Source of the DNA: Chordicoccus furentiruminis
GTDB lineage: Bacteria > Bacillota > Clostridia > Lachnospirales > Lachnospiraceae
Direction: 5' to 3'
DNA: 64,000 bases
Assembly: GCF_019355395.1 (NCBI RefSeq)
Contig: NZ_CP048829.1
Location: 2,259,501-2,323,500, forward strand
Of this stretch, positions 55,449 through 63,915 are shown piece by piece. Under the pieces are notes generated by a model. The model ran no database searches, was not told the DNA's origin, and saw only the letters and a program-made list of their open reading frames with translations. Position 1 is the first letter of the stretch. Every line of letters starts with the position of its first letter. The translations under genes and the position numbers were made by a program.

Positions 55449-55584
55449 ATGGAAACGCCGGGATGAGGGAAGAAAACAGCGCATTAGTCATTGGCTATTA
55501 GTGAAAAAATCAATTGACAATAATGCAATCGGATGAATATGTAGTATAATATACAGCATAATACAGCAAAACAACGAACAACAT

Positions 55585-57121
55585 GAGGCTTCGTGCACAT
55601 GTGTGGGTAGGAAATAGCCTCTGCCTACCATAATAACAATTGAAAAGGTCATCGGACTCTCGTAATGTATAGCTGTCGAAGAAATACAGAACGGAGATTC
55701 CAATGACCTCAGCTAATACATTATTGAAGAACATCCTTGACGTCAAGGGTGCAGTTGTTCAAGGCGCCGATTTTTCTGTTGATGCACATGGAGTAAAGAA
55801 GCTCACAGTCCGTATGCGTCCCAAAAATCGGGAGTCTGACCGCTGTCCGATCTGCGGCCGACATTGCTCTGTCTATGACAGATCCAGTATTATCCGGTCC
55901 TGGAGAGCCCTCGACTTTGCCGGCATCCTGGTGTACATCAATGCGTATACCCAGCGGATCAGATGTCCGAAGCACGGCGTTCTGGTTGCTGCCGTTCCAT
56001 GGGCGTTCCACGATTCCGGATTCACCAAGAGCTTTGATCTGACTGCCACCTGGATGGCTGAGAATCTCAGCCGCAGCGCCGTAGCCGAGTACCTCCGGAT
56101 CGACTGGAAGACCGTTGCCCGCTGCATCACAAGAGTCCGCAAATACATTGAGCCTGATCCAGGTAAACGGCTGGACAACCTTGTCAACATCGGAATCGAT
56201 GAGACAAGCTATCGTAAGGGTCACAAGTACATTACCGTCATAGTGAACCACGATACCAATACGGTTGTCTGGGCAAGCAACAAGCACGGAAAAGAGATCT
56301 TTTCCAAGTTTCTGGAAAGCCTTACTCCAGAGCAGAGGGCATCCATAAAGGTTGTTACCGGTGACGGTGCCAGATGGATCGACCAGTGCATTGAAGAATA
56401 CCTTCCGAACTGTGCACGCTGCGTTGATTCCTTCCACGTTGTAGAGTGGGCAAACGAAGCACTTGATGCTCTTCGCAAGGAAGCGTGGCGCGATGCCCAT
56501 CAGGAACTCAAGGAGCTCAAGAAGACCGTTAAGCGCAAGCGCGGTCGCGGAGCTTTGAAGGATAAGGATTCCATTGCCGTCCATAAGGCGGAGGAGAAAG
56601 CGGCTGAAATAAAGGGCTCTGCTTACGCATTAGGGAAAGCACCGGAACACCTGACCAACAAGCAGGAAACGCAGCTGGCTGAAATCGCGGTCAGCAATAA
56701 ACGTCTGTATCGTGGGTACCTGCTGAAAGAGCAGTTGAGGCTCATTCTTCATATGGACGATGCGGATGAGGCAAAGGAAGAACTGGACAGGTTCTTCTGG
56801 AGAGCCACCCACAGCCGCATCGATGAATTCAAGGAGCTTGGTCACAAGATCCGCCGGCATGAAGAGCACATCCTCAATACGATTCGATTGAAGATGAGCA
56901 ATGCCAGAATCGAGTCGACCAACAACAAAATCAAATTGATCATCCGGAGAGCATTTGGCTTCCGAGATGTGGAGAGTATGATCGATATGATCATGCTTGT
57001 CTGCTCGAATATTAAGGTTCCTTTACCGAACAGGCCGATAGCGGAGCCAGAAAACTAACAATGGAGGGGCTTAACGGGCATTTCTGCCACGGATTTTACC
57101 CACAGGTACGCCCGAAGAGCC
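55585..57121 (+). mobile_element. ISL3-family insertion sequence, copy 1 (intact)
   Basis: The 1537-bp unit starts GAGGCTTCGTGCACATG and ends in the inverse of GGCTCTTCGGGCGTAC, the ISL3-type terminal repeat, both followed by TGTGGGTA. It carries one intact transposase. The second copy at 60719-63915, once its own insertion is removed, has the same 1537-bp length. An 8-bp target duplication is not evident; only AACAT is shared by the flanks. Confidence 0.88.
55703..57058 (+). CDS. ISL3 family transposase (copy 1)
   Basis: The 451-residue transposase has an N-terminal zinc finger (CPICGRHCSVYD, RIRCPKHG), an HTH (SRSAVAEYLRIDWKTVARCI), the first Asp in IGIDETSYRKGH, the second in VTGDGARW and a C-terminal Glu in NARIESTNNKIKLIIRRAFGFR. 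The protein is identical to that of copy 2. The length is normal. Confidence 0.95.
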   Translation: MTSANTLLKNILDVKGAVVQGADFSVDAHGVKKLTVRMRPKNRESDRCPICGRHCSVYDRSSIIRSWRALDFAGILVYINAYTQRIRCPKHGVLVAAVPWAFHDSGFTKSFDLTATWMAENLSRSAVAEYLRIDWKTVARCITRVRKYIEPDPGKRLDNLVNIGIDETSYRKGHKYITVIVNHDTNTVVWASNKHGKEIFSKFLESLTPEQRASIKVVTGDGARWIDQCIEEYLPNCARCVDSFHVVEWANEALDALRKEAWRDAHQELKELKKTVKRKRGRGALKDKDSIAVHKAEEKAAEIKGSAYALGKAPEHLTNKQETQLAEIAVSNKRLYRGYLLKEQLRLILHMDDADEAKEELDRFFWRATHSRIDEFKELGHKIRRHEEHILNTIRLKMSNARIESTNNKIKLIIRRAFGFRDVESMIDMIMLVCSNIKVPLPNRPIAEPEN

Positions 57122-57159: not shown

Positions 57160-58137
57160 ATGAGAAGTAGAATTATCATAATTGCAATAACCTTGTGCAT
57201 GGCAATGCCTATAGCTTCTTGTGGAAATAAGGAAGAAACAGAGCATGTGTCTGAGTCGGTGGAGGCTTTGGATGATGTCGAACAAAACACTGTTGTTCCT
57301 TCGATCGAAGACCAGGAAGTGAATCCCGTTGTGCCAGATGCAGCTTCAGATAATACGACTGAAAACATCTCAAGTGAGTTAGAGGCAGATACGACTTTAG
57401 ATAATGGAGCGGATAGCATTTCTGAAGATCAGGCATATGCGGCAGTTATTAACTATTGTAAGGCAACTATCCCAGACTTTTCTGATGAGATTAACACTGA
57501 GGGATTCAGTGAGTATTGGGATGTGTCAACAAACGAAGATGGTGAAATAGTTGTTTTGTATCGCTCATATACTGCGGCACAGACACGATATTATATTGAC
57601 TCTGTCACAGGGGATACATATGTTACTGAGCTGGTGCCCGGAATTATTGATGACGAGCAGAGAACCGGAGAGACATTCAATGTGAGGGATTACCTAGTGG
57701 ATCCCGGTCAGCAGGATACTCCGACTCCACCAGAGAACAGCGCATCTGCTCCAGCGGAATATGAGACAGCAGACGGATTTATGAGCTCGTTTCTTTTATC
57801 CACTGAGAGGGATAAGATTGACACGACAAATGAGTATGGCACCTTCTACAGAGTTGTTTATGAGGCTTCACTGGAAGGAAACGAGCTTATCGCATGTGGC
57901 TCCATGGATTACAGAAATTCCATGGACCAGGATTCGATTTATATCTCTTCCGACCTGAAGCACATTTTTATAGTTGACGATAACACAGTATACCAGAAGG
58001 GTGGAGAAGAGAGCACTGTTACGGTTTCAAAGGATGAATTTGCGGAACTCCTCGACGAACGGAAGGACTCGGGTATGTTCCTTGGAGTAGAGATAAAGGA
58101 TGGAGTAGTTTCTACAGCCATGCTTTTCGCACAGTAA
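57160..58137 (+). CDS. Predicted lipoprotein of unknown function
   Basis: The 325-residue product has a short signal peptide with lipobox PIASC (Cys21) and then an acidic, Ser/Thr/Glu-rich stretch (~22-85). Two globular parts follow: one with EDQAYAAVINYCKATIPDFSDEINTEG (~88-160), and one with FYRVVYEASLEGNELIACGSMDY (~215-320). I do not recognise the family. Base composition is clearly AT-richer than the genes before 55 kb, which suggests transfer. An AAGGAG lies upstream, but the nearest ATG (57154) is followed at once by TAA and then the gene's ATG. Confidence 0.75.
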   Translation: MRSRIIIIAITLCMAMPIASCGNKEETEHVSESVEALDDVEQNTVVPSIEDQEVNPVVPDAASDNTTENISSELEADTTLDNGADSISEDQAYAAVINYCKATIPDFSDEINTEGFSEYWDVSTNEDGEIVVLYRSYTAAQTRYYIDSVTGDTYVTELVPGIIDDEQRTGETFNVRDYLVDPGQQDTPTPPENSASAPAEYETADGFMSSFLLSTERDKIDTTNEYGTFYRVVYEASLEGNELIACGSMDYRNSMDQDSIYISSDLKHIFIVDDNTVYQKGGEESTVTVSKDEFAELLDERKDSGMFLGVEIKDGVVSTAMLFAQ

Positions 58138-58529: not shown

Positions 58530-58730
58530 ATGAAGTATTTGTCTATAAAACAAACTTCAGTCAAATGGAATGTTTCAGGAAGAAGAATCAATGATCTTTG
58601 TATTTCAGGAAGAATACCAGGAGCAATAAAGATCGGATCTTACTGGGCAATCCCGGAAGATGCTGAAAAGCCTCGTGATGAAAGAATAAAGACAGGGCGT
58701 TATATAAAAATGAAACAGGAGGCGGAGTAA
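58530..58730 (+). CDS. Small excisionase-like helix-turn-helix protein
   Basis: The 66-residue protein reads YLSIKQTSVKWNVSGRRINDLCISGRIPGAIKIGSYWAIPEDAEKP. This is the winged-helix pattern of MerR/excisionase-like DNA-binding proteins (W-x-V-S-x-R-x-I, G-x-W-x-I-P). Its stop codon is directly followed by the ATG of the DraG-HsdM gene, whose ribosome site AGGAGGCGGAG lies inside this gene. It is therefore likely to be a regulator coupled to that gene. Confidence 0.75.
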   Translation: MKYLSIKQTSVKWNVSGRRINDLCISGRIPGAIKIGSYWAIPEDAEKPRDERIKTGRYIKMKQEAE

Positions 58731-60767
58731 ATGTTAGGAGCCATTATAGGCGATATTGCTGGTTCCCGGTTTGAGTGGAATAACATCAAGAGCAAAGAGT
58801 TTGACCTTCTGACTTATAGATGTGAACCGACGGATGACAGCATCATGACACTGGCTGTTGCTAAGGCTCTTCTTGAAAGCAAGGATGATTATCGCGTTCT
58901 TACAGACAAAACCATTAAATGGATGCAGACGCTAGGCAGAAAATATCCGCATGCTGGTTACGGCGGAAATTTTCATAAGTGGCTACTCAGCGATTCTCCT
59001 AAGCCTTATAACAGTTACGGTAATGGGGCGGCTATGCGGGTAAGTCCGTGTGCATATGTCGCCTCTTCTATGGATGAGGCTAAGCTTCTTGCGCGTATCG
59101 TGACGGAAGTCACGCATAATCACGCTGAAGGGATCAAGGGTGCAGAGGCTGTTACCGTTGCTATTTATATGGCTCTTCATGGAAGTAACCTTCTGGAAAT
59201 CCAAGACTATATCAACGCCAATTATTATCATATCACGTTTAAGTTGGATGATATTAGGCCAACATACACGTTTGATGTGAGTTGCCAAGGCTCTGTTCCG
59301 CAAGCATTAGAGGCATTTTTTGAATCCACGGATTATGAAGATACTATCAGAAATGCCATCTCAATTGGCGGAGACAGCGACACGATTGCTGCCATTGCCG
59401 GCAGCGTTGCAGAAGCCTATTATGGGATTCCCGCAGCGCTCCGTAAGCACGGGCTTACTTTTTTGGATGGGGACCAAATTAAAATATTAACCGATTTTGA
59501 GGACAAATTTGGATTCATCTCTGAAAAGGAAACGAAATCAGGACTTAAGAGAACAAAACACAAGCCTATGAAAGATGTGAGCAAAAATACCGAAGCATTA
59601 TCCAGGGAAGATATCGTACTTGAAGCAATAAAAGAATCAGACCTAGCAGATCGCACTACTGAGTATTGGAAGAAAATCACAAGTAACGCACTCTTCAATC
59701 ATTTATTTGAGGCGTGCAATATTTTGCGTGGTCCTATAGACCAGGACGACTATAAGTCGTACGTTATCCCGATTCTGTTTTTTAAACGCATATCCGATGT
59801 CTATGATGAAGAGACGGCTGAGAATGAAGAACAGTATGGTGATGACATCGCATTCTATCCAGAAGAAGAATTACACACTTTTGTGATTCCGAAGGGTTGC
59901 CATTGGAATGATGTGAGGAATACCAGCGAAGATGTTGGTAAAGCTATTGTAGACGCTATGATGGGTATCGAACATGCTAACCCAGATACAATGGCTGGCC
60001 TATTCTCTTCTTTTGATGATGCTAACTGGACTGATAAGACAAAACTGGATGATGAACGATTGAAGAACCTTATCGAGCATATGTCATCTATGCCGGTCGG
60101 AAATAAAAATTATTCCGCCGATGTAATGGGCGATGCTTATGAGTATCTAATCAAGAAATTTGCGGATATGAGCAAAAAGAACGCAGGAGAATTCTATACA
60201 CCGCGCTCAATTGTTAAGCTTATGGTTCAATTACTGAATCCCAAGTCAGGTGAGTCTGTTTATGATCCGGCATGTGGAACTGGAGGCATGCTTATTGAAG
60301 CCATTCGCAATATGGATGACGAAAAGGCTTCATATGGCAAGATTTATGGTCAGGAAAAAAATCTTTCCACCTCGGCTATTGCGAGAATGAATCTCTTCCT
60401 TCACGGAGCTAAGGAATTTAAGATTGTTCGCGAAGACACTTTACGAAAACCGGTTTTCATTCATAATGGTCAGCTTCAACAGTTTGACTGTGTTCTTGCG
60501 AATCCCCCGTTTGGATTGGATCACTGGGGGGCAGAGATTTTCGAGAATGATCAGTGGGGACGTAACATTTGGGGTAGCCCCACTGATTCAAATGCTGACT
60601 TTGCGTGGCTACAGCATATGTACAAGTCGATGCGTCCCGGAAAGGGGCGCTGTGCGGTAGTTATGCCGCAAGGTGTCTTGTTTCACGGTGGACGTGAGGG
60701 CGATATTCGGAAAAAAATGAGGCTTCGTGCACATGTGTGGGTAGGAAATAGCCTCTGCCTACCATAA
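58731..60767 (+). CDS. ADP-ribosylglycohydrolase (DraG-like) fused to type I DNA methyltransferase HsdM, 3' end lost to ISL3
   Basis: Residues ~1-255 form an ADP-ribosylglycohydrolase: GAIIGDIAGSRFEW, EPTDDSIMTLAVAKAL (metal site TDDS), GNGAAMRVSP, HNHAEGIKGAEA, GGDSDTIAAIAGSVAEAYYG. All expected metal residues are present. After a ~50-residue linker, residues ~312-450 match HsdM_N (NHLFEACNILRGPIDQDDYKSYVIPILFFKRISDVYDEE). Residues ~465-660 are the N6-adenine methylase domain with AGEFYTPRSIVKLM, motif I DPACGTGGML near 511 and motif IV LANPPFG near 590. The final ~17 residues (MRLRAHVWVGNSLCLP) come from the ISL3 end, so the C-terminal part of HsdM is missing. No HsdS or HsdR remains in the window. 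The fusion is in one uninterrupted frame. Confidence 0.88.
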   Translation: MLGAIIGDIAGSRFEWNNIKSKEFDLLTYRCEPTDDSIMTLAVAKALLESKDDYRVLTDKTIKWMQTLGRKYPHAGYGGNFHKWLLSDSPKPYNSYGNGAAMRVSPCAYVASSMDEAKLLARIVTEVTHNHAEGIKGAEAVTVAIYMALHGSNLLEIQDYINANYYHITFKLDDIRPTYTFDVSCQGSVPQALEAFFESTDYEDTIRNAISIGGDSDTIAAIAGSVAEAYYGIPAALRKHGLTFLDGDQIKILTDFEDKFGFISEKETKSGLKRTKHKPMKDVSKNTEALSREDIVLEAIKESDLADRTTEYWKKITSNALFNHLFEACNILRGPIDQDDYKSYVIPILFFKRISDVYDEETAENEEQYGDDIAFYPEEELHTFVIPKGCHWNDVRNTSEDVGKAIVDAMMGIEHANPDTMAGLFSSFDDANWTDKTKLDDERLKNLIEHMSSMPVGNKNYSADVMGDAYEYLIKKFADMSKKNAGEFYTPRSIVKLMVQLLNPKSGESVYDPACGTGGMLIEAIRNMDDEKASYGKIYGQEKNLSTSAIARMNLFLHGAKEFKIVREDTLRKPVFIHNGQLQQFDCVLANPPFGLDHWGAEIFENDQWGRNIWGSPTDSNADFAWLQHMYKSMRPGKGRCAVVMPQGVLFHGGREGDIRKKMRLRAHVWVGNSLCLP

Positions 60768-60771
60768 TAAC

Positions 60772-62426
60772 CCTGAATTATTCATGACGTTAGATTCCAA
60801 CTGGAAATCTCGTCAGATAATTGTTTGATGATGGCATCTCATTCGCAAAAGCAGAGAGTTATCCACAAAAAGGGCAAATTATCCCCTTGTTTATGAGTGG
60901 TTGCGTTTGAGATTGTCAAGGTTCACGAATTACTGCTTATTCCAGCAGTGGTTGTAGCTGCCTGATATTTAAGAGCGTTTCATTAAACTCTTTCTTGTAA
61001 GGGCAGCTGCTGCACAGCTTGAATATGATATATCTTGCTGAATGAACCGCTTTCGCGGCGATCTTCAGCAACTTCAAACGAACGGTATTGATCCGCTGCT
61101 TTCTCATGCCTGCGGGTAATACCAGTCGTCGAAACCAATTGAACAGGTTATAGGCAAGAGCATGTACTTGCAGGCGGTTTGCATTGACCACCTTGGAACG
61201 ACTGCTCACAGAAGAGAAATCGAACCCAGATTTTCCTTCTTTGATGAAGTTCTCCATCTTGCCCCGGCCACAGTAAAACTTAATGACCTGATATGGAGCT
61301 GTTTCCATCGTTGTGACGATAAAGGTATACAGATGGACCATCTGGTTATAGGGTTTCTCAATCTTAAAGACAACCCTTCTCGGATGAGGCCAACTGCCGG
61401 CCTGATATTCAAACTCGCCGTATTCCACAGCGTAATCAACCTGGTTTTCACGAGTAGCCCGGTAAAGGTCTTCATCCGCATCGGATGCATACTTGATTAA
61501 TGTCGAGTTCTGTTTCAGGCGGATCGCATACTTGCAGTCGTTTTCTTCACAGGCTTTATACAGTTCCGGCGAGGCAAAACCGCTGTCACCACGCAGATAC
61601 AAGGGCAATGATGGATATTTTATCCTGTACTCCTGCATCAGTGGAATCATGAACTGATCGGCATCCTTGCTGCAATACTGTGTACCATCACGCAGCTCCG
61701 ATTTCAGCAGATCTCCGGTCAGCCCATCGCAGCAAAGCAGCGGGTGATAGCCGTGGGCTTGATAATGAAAGTTGAAGCCTTCACCTTCCTGGCCGCCATA
61801 TGTGTTCAGTAGGGTGGAGTCCAGATCAAACAGCATAAACTCTGGCATTTTACTGGAATAAACAACATCTCTCATTTTTGACTGGATCATCGCCAACTGA
61901 GCGAGCGTATCTTCATCCATGCGGTTCCAGAAACGGGACAGTGTAGGCTGTGAAGCAAGTATATCTTTATCAAGGATTGCGGTCAGTACTGGATCGTTTG
62001 TCAGTTCATCGGCACAATCATCTTCGAAATAAGCAGCTATGATCTGATAGACCATCTGCATCAGGTTATCAGGGTCCGTGTGAATGCGGCAGTTCGTATG
62101 ATCGTTGGTCTTAAAAAGCTGTTTTACAAGCTTTGTCAGGCCGATCTTTGAGGCGAATTCTTTGATCAGAAGCAATCCGCCGTCAGAGGAAAGGTCGCCG
62201 CCGTCAAAATTTATTTTGATTTGCTTATTGCTTTCAAGTGAAATGGTGTTTAGAATTGTCATAGAGGACCTCTTTCTCTTGGTAATTGATTGATTCGACA
62301 CCTTGATTTTACCAAGAATAGGGTCCTTTTTCTATTCACTTTTCAAGTGAAAGCAGGAAAGCTGTGTAACCATAGTAACCATGCGACTTTTAGTCGCAAT
62401 CACCGCCTTGCGGTGAATAATTCAAG
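60772..62426 (-). mobile_element. IS1380-family insertion sequence inside ISL3 copy 2
   Basis: The 1655-bp element has terminal inverted repeats CCTGAATTATTCA and the inverse of CTTGAATTATTCA. It is flanked by a 5-bp direct repeat ATAAC (60767-60771 and 62427-62431). It carries one intact transposase on the minus strand. It inserted between the ISL3 left end and its transposase gene. Confidence 0.92.
60937..62262 (-). CDS. IS1380 family transposase
   Basis: The 441-residue transposase carries KINFDGGDLSSDGGLLLIKEF at the start, MLFDLDSTLLNTYG (first Asp), LYLRGDSGFASPELY (second Asp), and ENFIKEGKSGFDFSSVSS near the catalytic Glu. These are IS1380 hallmarks. ATG 62262 follows AGAGGTCCTCT; the frame is open to 62301. 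The length is normal. Confidence 0.92.
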   Translation of the reverse strand: MTILNTISLESNKQIKINFDGGDLSSDGGLLLIKEFASKIGLTKLVKQLFKTNDHTNCRIHTDPDNLMQMVYQIIAAYFEDDCADELTNDPVLTAILDKDILASQPTLSRFWNRMDEDTLAQLAMIQSKMRDVVYSSKMPEFMLFDLDSTLLNTYGGQEGEGFNFHYQAHGYHPLLCCDGLTGDLLKSELRDGTQYCSKDADQFMIPLMQEYRIKYPSLPLYLRGDSGFASPELYKACEENDCKYAIRLKQNSTLIKYASDADEDLYRATRENQVDYAVEYGEFEYQAGSWPHPRRVVFKIEKPYNQMVHLYTFIVTTMETAPYQVIKFYCGRGKMENFIKEGKSGFDFSSVSSRSKVVNANRLQVHALAYNLFNWFRRLVLPAGMRKQRINTVRLKLLKIAAKAVHSARYIIFKLCSSCPYKKEFNETLLNIRQLQPLLE

Positions 62427-62496
62427 ATAACAATTGAAAAGGTCATCGGACTCTCGTAATGTATAGCTGTCGAAGAAATACAGAACGGAGATTCCA

Positions 62497-63852
62497 ATGA
62501 CCTCAGCTAATACATTATTGAAGAACATCCTTGACGTCAAGGGTGCAGTTGTTCAAGGCGCCGATTTTTCTGTTGATGCACATGGAGTAAAGAAGCTCAC
62601 AGTCCGTATGCGTCCCAAAAATCGGGAGTCTGACCGCTGTCCGATCTGCGGCCGACATTGCTCTGTCTATGACAGATCCAGTATTATCCGGTCCTGGAGA
62701 GCCCTCGACTTTGCCGGCATCCTGGTGTACATCAATGCGTATACCCAGCGGATCAGATGTCCGAAGCACGGCGTTCTGGTTGCTGCCGTTCCATGGGCGT
62801 TCCACGATTCCGGATTCACCAAGAGCTTTGATCTGACTGCCACCTGGATGGCTGAGAATCTCAGCCGCAGCGCCGTAGCCGAGTACCTCCGGATCGACTG
62901 GAAGACCGTTGCCCGCTGCATCACAAGAGTCCGCAAATACATTGAGCCTGATCCAGGTAAACGGCTGGACAACCTTGTCAACATCGGAATCGATGAGACA
63001 AGCTATCGTAAGGGTCACAAGTACATTACCGTCATAGTGAACCACGATACCAATACGGTTGTCTGGGCAAGCAACAAGCACGGAAAAGAGATCTTTTCCA
63101 AGTTTCTGGAAAGCCTTACTCCAGAGCAGAGGGCATCCATAAAGGTTGTTACCGGTGACGGTGCCAGATGGATCGACCAGTGCATTGAAGAATACCTTCC
63201 GAACTGTGCACGCTGCGTTGATTCCTTCCACGTTGTAGAGTGGGCAAACGAAGCACTTGATGCTCTTCGCAAGGAAGCGTGGCGCGATGCCCATCAGGAA
63301 CTCAAGGAGCTCAAGAAGACCGTTAAGCGCAAGCGCGGTCGCGGAGCTTTGAAGGATAAGGATTCCATTGCCGTCCATAAGGCGGAGGAGAAAGCGGCTG
63401 AAATAAAGGGCTCTGCTTACGCATTAGGGAAAGCACCGGAACACCTGACCAACAAGCAGGAAACGCAGCTGGCTGAAATCGCGGTCAGCAATAAACGTCT
63501 GTATCGTGGGTACCTGCTGAAAGAGCAGTTGAGGCTCATTCTTCATATGGACGATGCGGATGAGGCAAAGGAAGAACTGGACAGGTTCTTCTGGAGAGCC
63601 ACCCACAGCCGCATCGATGAATTCAAGGAGCTTGGTCACAAGATCCGCCGGCATGAAGAGCACATCCTCAATACGATTCGATTGAAGATGAGCAATGCCA
63701 GAATCGAGTCGACCAACAACAAAATCAAATTGATCATCCGGAGAGCATTTGGCTTCCGAGATGTGGAGAGTATGATCGATATGATCATGCTTGTCTGCTC
63801 GAATATTAAGGTTCCTTTACCGAACAGGCCGATAGCGGAGCCAGAAAACTAA
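62497..63852 (+). CDS. ISL3 family transposase (copy 2)
   Basis: The protein is identical over all 451 residues to copy 1, including the zinc finger, HTH and DDE residues. Its own upstream region is intact from 62427, so it could be expressed despite the IS1380 insertion further upstream. Confidence 0.95.
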   Translation: MTSANTLLKNILDVKGAVVQGADFSVDAHGVKKLTVRMRPKNRESDRCPICGRHCSVYDRSSIIRSWRALDFAGILVYINAYTQRIRCPKHGVLVAAVPWAFHDSGFTKSFDLTATWMAENLSRSAVAEYLRIDWKTVARCITRVRKYIEPDPGKRLDNLVNIGIDETSYRKGHKYITVIVNHDTNTVVWASNKHGKEIFSKFLESLTPEQRASIKVVTGDGARWIDQCIEEYLPNCARCVDSFHVVEWANEALDALRKEAWRDAHQELKELKKTVKRKRGRGALKDKDSIAVHKAEEKAAEIKGSAYALGKAPEHLTNKQETQLAEIAVSNKRLYRGYLLKEQLRLILHMDDADEAKEELDRFFWRATHSRIDEFKELGHKIRRHEEHILNTIRLKMSNARIESTNNKIKLIIRRAFGFRDVESMIDMIMLVCSNIKVPLPNRPIAEPEN

Positions 63853-63915
63853 CAATGGAGGGGCTTAACGGGCATTTCTGCCACGGATTTTACCCACAGG
63901 TACGCCCGAAGAGCC

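Follow-up and report, generated by a model that had tools for sequence, protein, structure and literature searches.

A DraG-like ADP-ribosylglycohydrolase fused to the M1 subunit of two-methylase type I restriction-modification systems, with a truncated copy in Chordicoccus furentiruminis

The DraG-HsdM fusion and its truncation

We analyzed a 64,000-nucleotide stretch of the Chordicoccus furentiruminis genome (contig NZ_CP048829.1, positions 2,259,501 to 2,323,500; hereafter, the window, to which all positions given without a locus name refer), in which a single open reading frame (ORF) joins a DraG-like ADP-ribosylglycohydrolase domain, through a linker of some 60 residues, to HsdM, the methylase subunit of a type I restriction-modification (R-M) system. 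The same in-frame fusion is present in 21 other loci, that is, in 22 including the window. The original prediction, made from the letters of the window, that one frame encompasses a DraG-like domain, HsdM_N and an N6-methylase was confirmed by Pfam searches, with scores far above the cut-offs for ADP_ribosyl_GH (PF03747, residues 1-234, 123.2 bits against 26.2), HsdM_N (PF12161, residues 323-451, 85 bits against 24.5) and N6_Mtase (PF02384, residues 462-663, 231 bits against 20.4). The motifs TDDS, GNGAAMR and GGDSDT in the DraG domain and DPACGTGG and NPPF in the methylase are found in the ORF, and the sequence AGGAGG (58717-58722) lies ahead of its ATG. The N6_Mtase match covers only positions 2-201 of the 311 in the model, so that the methylase is incomplete; unbroken relatives of the fusion are approximately 803-811 amino acids long compared to 678 in the window.

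The truncation is caused by an insertion sequence (IS) of the ISL3 family. The HsdM sequence ends near residue 663 out of 808, the residues beyond this point being encoded by the left end of the IS, and the window protein therefore lacks about 145 C-terminal residues. Because the ISL3 left end and the rest of the same copy flank a second element, which is of the IS1380 type and of which more copies are present elsewhere in the genome, the ISL3 copy must have cut hsdM1 and then been split by the second IS. Both ISL3 copies of the window encode an identical transposase (Pfam DDE_Tnp_ISL3), and no clear target-site duplication was detected at either of them. The G+C content is 60-63% at 53.0-55.5 kb but 40-43% within the fusion, which would fit acquisition of the fusion from another source.

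The rest of the system appears to be missing from this genome. When the 3.27-Mb contig was searched with the proteins of the relatives, the best match to the second HsdM was 32% identical (the fusion itself excluded), and that to HsdR, 31%, apart from a 58-residue HsdR piece at 45%; the missing 145-residue tail of HsdM1 yielded a best match of 23%. These distant matches, together with the best match to HsdS (27%, in a search that is weak because hsdS is highly variable), fall in other type I-like loci. Thus, the HsdM1 tail, the second hsdM and hsdR are absent from the contig, and the window copy is an IS-broken remnant that has lost everything but a part of M1. The original reading of this copy as a working enzyme is accordingly not supported, and a functional R-M system in the window was rejected on the same grounds; the methylase of this genome probably cannot work, although the DraG part alone, judging from its sequence, could remain functional. 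The features of the locus are collected in Table 1.

Table 1. Features identified around the fusion gene in the window
Feature	Position	Strand	Remarks
Second ISL3 copy, upstream (transposase 55703-57058)	55576..57121	+	two copies bracket the fusion remnant
Small HTH_17-like ORF, 66 aa	58530..58730	+	stop TAA abuts the fusion ATG; HTH_17 E 9e-4, under the cut-off
DraG-HsdM1 fusion ORF	58731..60767	+	678 aa, ATG start, 3' end truncated by IS
DraG/ARH ADP-ribosylglycohydrolase domain, aa 1-250	58731..59480	+	PF03747; best solved chain ARH3 (phmmer)
DraG motifs	TDDS 58830-58841, GNGAAMR 59019-59039, GGDSDT 59367-59384	+	metal and catalytic residues intact
Variable linker, aa 251-320	59481..59690	+	higher dN/dS than flanking domains in relatives, where measurable
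HsdM N-terminal domain	59697..60083	+	Pfam PF12161
N6-adenine methyltransferase domain, M1 type	60114..60719	+	PF02384; best solved match 7vru_A (PacII M1)
Methylase motifs	NAGEFYTPR 60180-60206, DPACGTGG 60264-60287, NPPF 60501-60512	+	
Left end of ISL3-family IS, breaks hsdM1	60710..60771	+	60/62 bases identical to left end of the other copy, 55576-55637
IS1380-type element (transposase 60937-62301)	60772..62426	-	inside the ISL3 copy; Pfam DDE_Tnp_1_4; separates the matching ISL3 parts
Rest of ISL3 copy (transposase 62497-63852)	62427..63915	+	1489 bases, 100% identical to 55633-57121

Relatives carrying the fusion

The occurrence of the same in-frame join in 21 other loci, in several genomes without an IS, identifies a real, conserved DraG-HsdM fusion; it rules out an assembly or sequencing join, and the possibility raised in the original prediction, that relatives always encode the two domains as separate genes, does not apply. 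Loci (L) and genomes (G) are denoted below by our own identifiers. A scan of genome contigs yielded 7 loci, of which 6 carry the fusion and one is a fragment (L033); they lie in metagenome-assembled genomes, most of which derive from the guts of sheep, goats and rabbits. Searches of whole genomes, in partly overlapping sets, recovered full fusions or fusions at contig ends in G059 (99 genomes searched), G380 and G239 (397), G726 and G536 (392) and G761 (398); with so few among 99-398 genomes per search, the fusion is uncommon. Viral contigs contributed 8 fusion loci among 33, in addition to L167, whereas neither the 72,556 plasmid records nor the 50,697 phage records contained a match that spans 80% of the query. 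Pfam analysis of four loci (L027, L032, L070, L076) showed relaxase, coupling-protein or recombinase genes next to the fusion in each. The fusions form two divergent clades, with M1 approximately 60-66% identical between them.

Several of these loci are incomplete or redundant. L042 and L073 begin inside the DraG domain, and the frames of L157 and L031 are disrupted by a frameshift further on. Two pairs are redundant in the domains that were compared: L076 and L156 are identical there, and L072 is nearly identical to L042. Two loci that begin inside M1 (L033, L170) were counted neither as fused nor as unfused. In the ORF tables, ORFs overlapping a longer ORF by more than 30% (50% in one table) were dropped.

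Full-text searches of the open-license literature, a limited test, turned up no earlier description of a DraG-HsdM fusion. The components of the fusion are already known, and it is their covalent combination that these searches did not find.

The fused methylase is an M1-type subunit

The best solved match of the fused methylase is 7vru_A and that of the HsdM encoded by the second hsdM gene of the relatives is 7vru_B; these are the two different M subunits in the PacII structure. According to the account of PacII in PMC9613975, M1 subunits with AGEF and NPPF produce N6-methyladenine (m6A), and M2 subunits with AAEF and NPPY produce N4-methylcytosine (m4C). All 20 fusions examined, including the one in the window, contain AGE[FY]YTPR (AGEY in three) and NPPF, and the M2 subunits from all 15 fused loci examined among the relatives contain AQEFYTNR and NPPY. 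Taken together with the PacII matches, these motifs indicate, at the level of sequence, that DraG is fused to the m6A-type subunit, M1, of a PacII-like, non-canonical m6A/m4C type I system, with an expected holoenzyme composition of R2-M1-M2-S. The plain type I membership given in the original prediction is not supported, as the fusion is the M1 subunit of a two-M system. The arginine corresponding to PacII R29, which is reported for M2, unlike M1, in PMC9613975, is present in 15/15 M2 proteins of the fused loci and also in 20/20 M1 proteins.

Not all M1 genes of this type carry the DraG domain. DraG-less M1-M2-S-R operons were identified on Exiguobacterium and Streptomyces plasmids, and reading of the DNA beside 8 more distant M1 genes from viral contigs (47-54% identical, with three near-copies among them) revealed no DraG homology.

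Operon organization

The second hsdM lies directly downstream of the fusion in all 21 relatives. An hsdS sequence is present in 19 of these, the contigs of the remaining two (L042, L157) ending inside the second hsdM, and hsdR was found in 13, following hsdS in 12 and preceding the fusion in L167. Among the 8 relatives without hsdR, 7 contigs end first, and L031 has no hsdR in the available DNA. The HsdR of L028 contains HSDR_N, SWI2/SNF2 and T1R_D3-like domains and scores 500 bits with the NCBIfam hsdR model against a cut-off of 284.55. The hsdS and hsdR neighbors that the original prediction proposed to look for are a feature of the relatives but not of the window genome.

A tyrosine recombinase is encoded in 10 of the 21 fused loci, and in the four loci examined, the hsdS copies share short direct repeats. 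In three loci (L030:4253-7836, L027:11877-15198, L070:11891-15675), the recombinase gene is flanked by a full hsdS on one side and partial copies of hsdS on the other. By sequence, the recombinase and the repeated hsdS parts suggest switching or shuffling of specificity.

A gene encoding a protein of about 535 amino acids, which we denote gene X, lies upstream of 12 of the 15 fusions of clade B (L070:6367-7986; also L034, L069, L071, L074, L075, L076, L103, L155, L156, L157 and L167); the other three contigs begin inside the fusion or just before it. Inspection of eight gene X proteins by eye showed no DPxxGxG or NPPY/F motif of the usual kind in the methylase-like part, and the best solved match of the recognition domain (in L070) is ‘Esub1’ (8VSQ). 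The product of gene X resembles a pseudo-enzyme accessory subunit.

Other neighbors are less frequent. A gene for a helix-turn-helix (HTH) or weakly capP-like protein of about 640 amino acids is present in five fused loci (L074:9694-11643, also L069, L071, L073 and L167) and also in L181, among type I operons; the L074 protein has no solved relative at E 0.01. The operon of L167 includes a GmrSD gene (Pfam; L167:10100-11923) 3' of hsdS, and in one locus, a DUF2971 gene lies between gene X and the fusion (L103:4951-5913). A WYL gene is located directly upstream of the fusion in L031, the only fused locus in which such a gene was observed, and a Nudix gene was likewise observed in a single locus, L069. 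Among the 19 accessory neighbors of the fusions that were scanned with Pfam (not every neighbor was), none belongs to an ADP-ribosyltransferase (ART) family, as one would predict for a modifying enzyme of external origin.

In L034, L103, L155 and L076, the linker between the two domains contains GGAGG 10 nucleotides before an in-frame ATG at residue 291-292, a combination absent from the window, L028, L031 and L074. Such an internal start, if used, could yield free HsdM1 in those four loci.

The small ORF that abuts the fusion in the window had been suggested to control it. However, no homologue lies beside any of the 21 other fusions: in a tblastn search of 187 loci with E values up to 1, homologues were found only in the window genome, the one further match, of 16 residues in L175, being at the level of chance, so that a conserved regulatory role was rejected. 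The stretch that separates the fusion from the upstream ISL3 copy encodes a 325-residue protein (57160-58137) with a lipoprotein-like start, as judged by eye, and with no Pfam or NCBIfam match. The window's own genome also harbors a second, fragmentary ADP_ribosyl_GH match (L002; G000:C1:1509106-1509390, minus strand; 48 bits, profile positions 191-286) with one internal stop. Rfam, tRNA and promoter scans yielded nothing informative.

Conservation and evolution of the DraG domain

The best solved relative of the fused DraG domain detected by phmmer is ARH3, with which the TDD, GNG and GGDSDT blocks align, whereas the stretch around the glutamate E15 aligns weakly. All 12 checked DraG sites are retained in all 20 fusions with a full DraG domain, including the window copy, and the two DraG domains cut by contig ends retain all 8 of the checked sites that are present. 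Ratios of nonsynonymous to synonymous substitution rates (dN/dS) were calculated for 10 pairs from the 16 of the 22 fusions that were aligned; dS could not be estimated for DraG in 6 of these pairs, for HsdM1 in 8 and for the linker in 4. The values are 0.025-0.046 for DraG (4/10 pairs), 0.008-0.021 for HsdM1 (2/10 pairs) and 0.10-0.28 for the linker (6/10 pairs), with a high dS (0.8-2.6) in the pairs that could be estimated. Both domains are under strong purifying selection where this is measurable. With its sites retained and its dN/dS low, DraG appears to be maintained as a predicted enzyme on a variable tether.

In the M1 tree, three changes between the fused and unfused states are forced; among the unfused genes, L154 (G666) branches outside the fusion group, and L102 (G175) and L173 branch inside. 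One gain with two losses, or two gains with a loss, would both fit this topology. The tree was built with 20 fusions and then with 21 (the duplicate L156 left out), with long outgroup branches in both versions, and the smaller tree forced only one change. In the tree of the DraG domain, built from 20 fusions together with 32 stand-alone loci out of 91, fused and stand-alone domains are interleaved, and at least four changes are forced.

Stand-alone relatives

The stand-alone DraG that is closest to the one in L030 (74%) is itself fused to NADAR; this 460-residue DraG-NADAR protein is encoded at L153:5942-7324 (G561). Other stand-alone DraGs adjoin NADAR (G673), KptA (G160), AIPR (G699) or a GmrSD restriction gene (G096). 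Among the 93 loci with a DraG match, macrodomain homologues (with the query checked by Pfam) were detected in 10, NADAR in 4 (two genomes), GmrSD in 3 (one genome), and KptA and AIPR in 2 each (one genome each). Many of the stand-alone loci are only about 3.7 kb long, and several are repeats of one genome; because the loci are short, the neighbor counts are lower bounds. A second link of the DraG subfamily to restriction was observed in one genome, in which a GmrSD-type restriction gene is followed by a DraG-DUF6508 fusion (L108:3565-7765). The neighbors of DraG in many other stand-alone loci are uninformative. Overall, the context of the subfamily leans toward ADP-ribose and conflict biology, short of proof.

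Possible functions of the fusion

The fusion, its motifs, the operon, the selection and the truncation are all features of the sequences themselves. From precedents in the literature, namely, systems predicted to counter viral ADP-ribosylation, AcrIF11 and an ARH3-like enzyme that acts on ADP-ribosylated RNA ends, we infer an on-board ADP-ribose eraser protecting the R-M complex; the activity of the hydrolase, its substrate and its benefit all belong to this inferred part. In the intact relatives, an ARH3-like ADP-ribose hydrolase would be tethered to the N-terminus of the M1 subunit of a mobile R-M system. An ART of a phage or plasmid would modify the restriction complex, or proteins beside the complex on DNA, and the tethered DraG would remove the ADP-ribose so that restriction continues, a form of anti-anti-restriction. 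We propose tentatively, by analogy, that such a built-in eraser on the m6A methylase subunit may keep restriction working under ART attack, and regard this as the best of the explanations considered, although far from secure. AcrIF11 inhibits type I-F CRISPR via ADP-ribosylation of Csy1/Cas8, and this mark is removed in lysate by human MacroD2, whereas two viral macrodomains do not remove it, according to the data in PMC12421852. Section 3.8 of PMC9503650 predicts that DraG-type (ARG) domains without a coupled transferase undo viral ADP-ribosylation, and some of the systems described there include nuclease effectors and regulators of the WYL or Nudix type; the terms HsdM, methylase and methyltransferase are absent from the main text of that article. 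That DraG would shield the methylase from ADP-ribosylation by phages, as suggested in the original prediction, is plausible and has published precedents.

Several observations weigh against this proposal. The eraser activity is predicted from conserved residues; in the literature examined, we came across no type I enzyme that is ADP-ribosylated by an enzyme of a phage; and in the experiments reported in PMC12421852, the macrodomains tried gave no protection in vivo. The DUF2971 gene in the operon of L103 could be a local partner. Given the DraG-less M1 genes inside the fusion group and just outside it, the system seems to do without the DraG domain, and the interleaved DraG tree points to a module that has been exchanged and is not tightly co-adapted. 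The dispensability of DraG would fit a counter-counter-defense that pays only where such phages occur, but also fits a passenger, that is, a mobile stand-alone DraG accidentally fused to hsdM1 and kept for a cell-wide ADP-ribose clean-up unrelated to restriction. We consider such a passenger unlikely, even though the at least four forced changes in the DraG tree, the existence of DraG-less M1 genes and the many close stand-alone DraGs in varied neighborhoods without recognizable defense genes all point in its direction, because two divergent clades have kept the in-frame fusion, which is retained beside conjugation or recombinase genes and shows purifying selection on both domains where measurable.

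The eraser might also act not on protein but on ADP-ribosylated DNA or on DNA or RNA ends, with the S subunit bringing DraG to the DNA, and either clean host DNA hit by DarT-like or KptA-like enzymes or clear tags that block methylation or restriction. The partner of DraG is a DNA enzyme, its best solved relative is ARH3, a bacterial ARH3-like protein, SCO5809, removes ADP-ribose from RNA phosphate ends as described in PMC11833690, and stand-alone DraGs are fused to NADAR (G561) or adjoin NADAR (G673) or KptA (G160). Nevertheless, the ARH-like enzymes tested in the same study left the ADP-ribose on guanosine bases of RNA, no DarT-like gene is found among the 19 scanned neighbors, and the variable linker does not point to precise placement on DNA, which makes a nucleic acid substrate improbable in our view. 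Finally, DraG could be a sensor through which ADP-ribose, or a related signal derived from NAD, switches between methylation and restriction at infection. The attachment of DraG to the M1 subunit would suit a sensor, as would the regulators encoded nearby, namely, WYL, Nudix and the HTH or weakly capP-like protein of the five loci, but WYL and Nudix genes were each observed in a single fused locus, and all the catalytic residues are kept, which a pure sensor would not need; we consider this possibility less likely still.

Implications and comparison with known systems

As pointed out in PMC9503650, phages often encode ARTs, whereas the reversal of the modification in bacteria is hardly understood, and counter-systems of the DraG type have been predicted. 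A covalent link between hydrolase and methylase, kept in 22 loci, would name a concrete protected object and renders the idea directly testable. If the eraser proposal is correct, phage or plasmid ARTs that disable type I restriction exist and are still to be found; such anti-restriction enzymes would parallel AcrIF11, which targets CRISPR. For genome annotation, the fusion shows that a ‘DraG’ match on a mobile element can represent the head portion of a type I system with two M subunits.

Among the known systems, MADS was rejected because the score with the MAD2 methylase model NF047738 is 81.5 bits against a cut-off of 720. DarTG and DarT-NADAR resemble the fusion in tying the removal of ADP-ribose to phage defense, but differ in that no ART is recognized among the scanned neighbors of the fusions and the hydrolase belongs to a different family; membership in DarTG was rejected, with no DarT-type Pfam match among the 19 scanned neighbors. 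PacII (PDB 7VRU, 7VS4), as presented in PMC9613975, shares with the relatives of the window two M subunits (AGEF/NPPF and NPPY) and HsdS, the relatives having R as well. However, PacII M1 is a 499-residue chain, with no room for the DraG domain carried by M1 of this family; M2 of the relatives reads AQEF in place of AAEF, and their M1 also has the arginine found in PacII M2. The tyrosine recombinase of the fused loci and the loss of all but a part of M1 in the window further set the family apart from PacII.

The fusion shares with the ARH3/DraG family (PF03747) the sequence similarity, the TDD, GNG and GGDSDT sites and, in a weakly aligned stretch, E15, but the solved members of the family that were found are chains of single-domain size (297-366 residues), whereas the fused DraG is tethered to a DNA methylase. 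The ARG-centered systems outlined in PMC9503650 likewise include a DraG-type domain in a conflict setting, and in one fused locus the resemblance extends to WYL; as to a coupled ART, none was recognized among the 19 neighbors scanned, although L103 has the DUF2971 gene as a candidate partner. Unlike in those systems, there is no gene for a rhodanese phosphatase, a chaperone or ARPP among the 19 scanned neighbors, and the partner of DraG in the fusion is a type I R-M system to which the domain is linked covalently.

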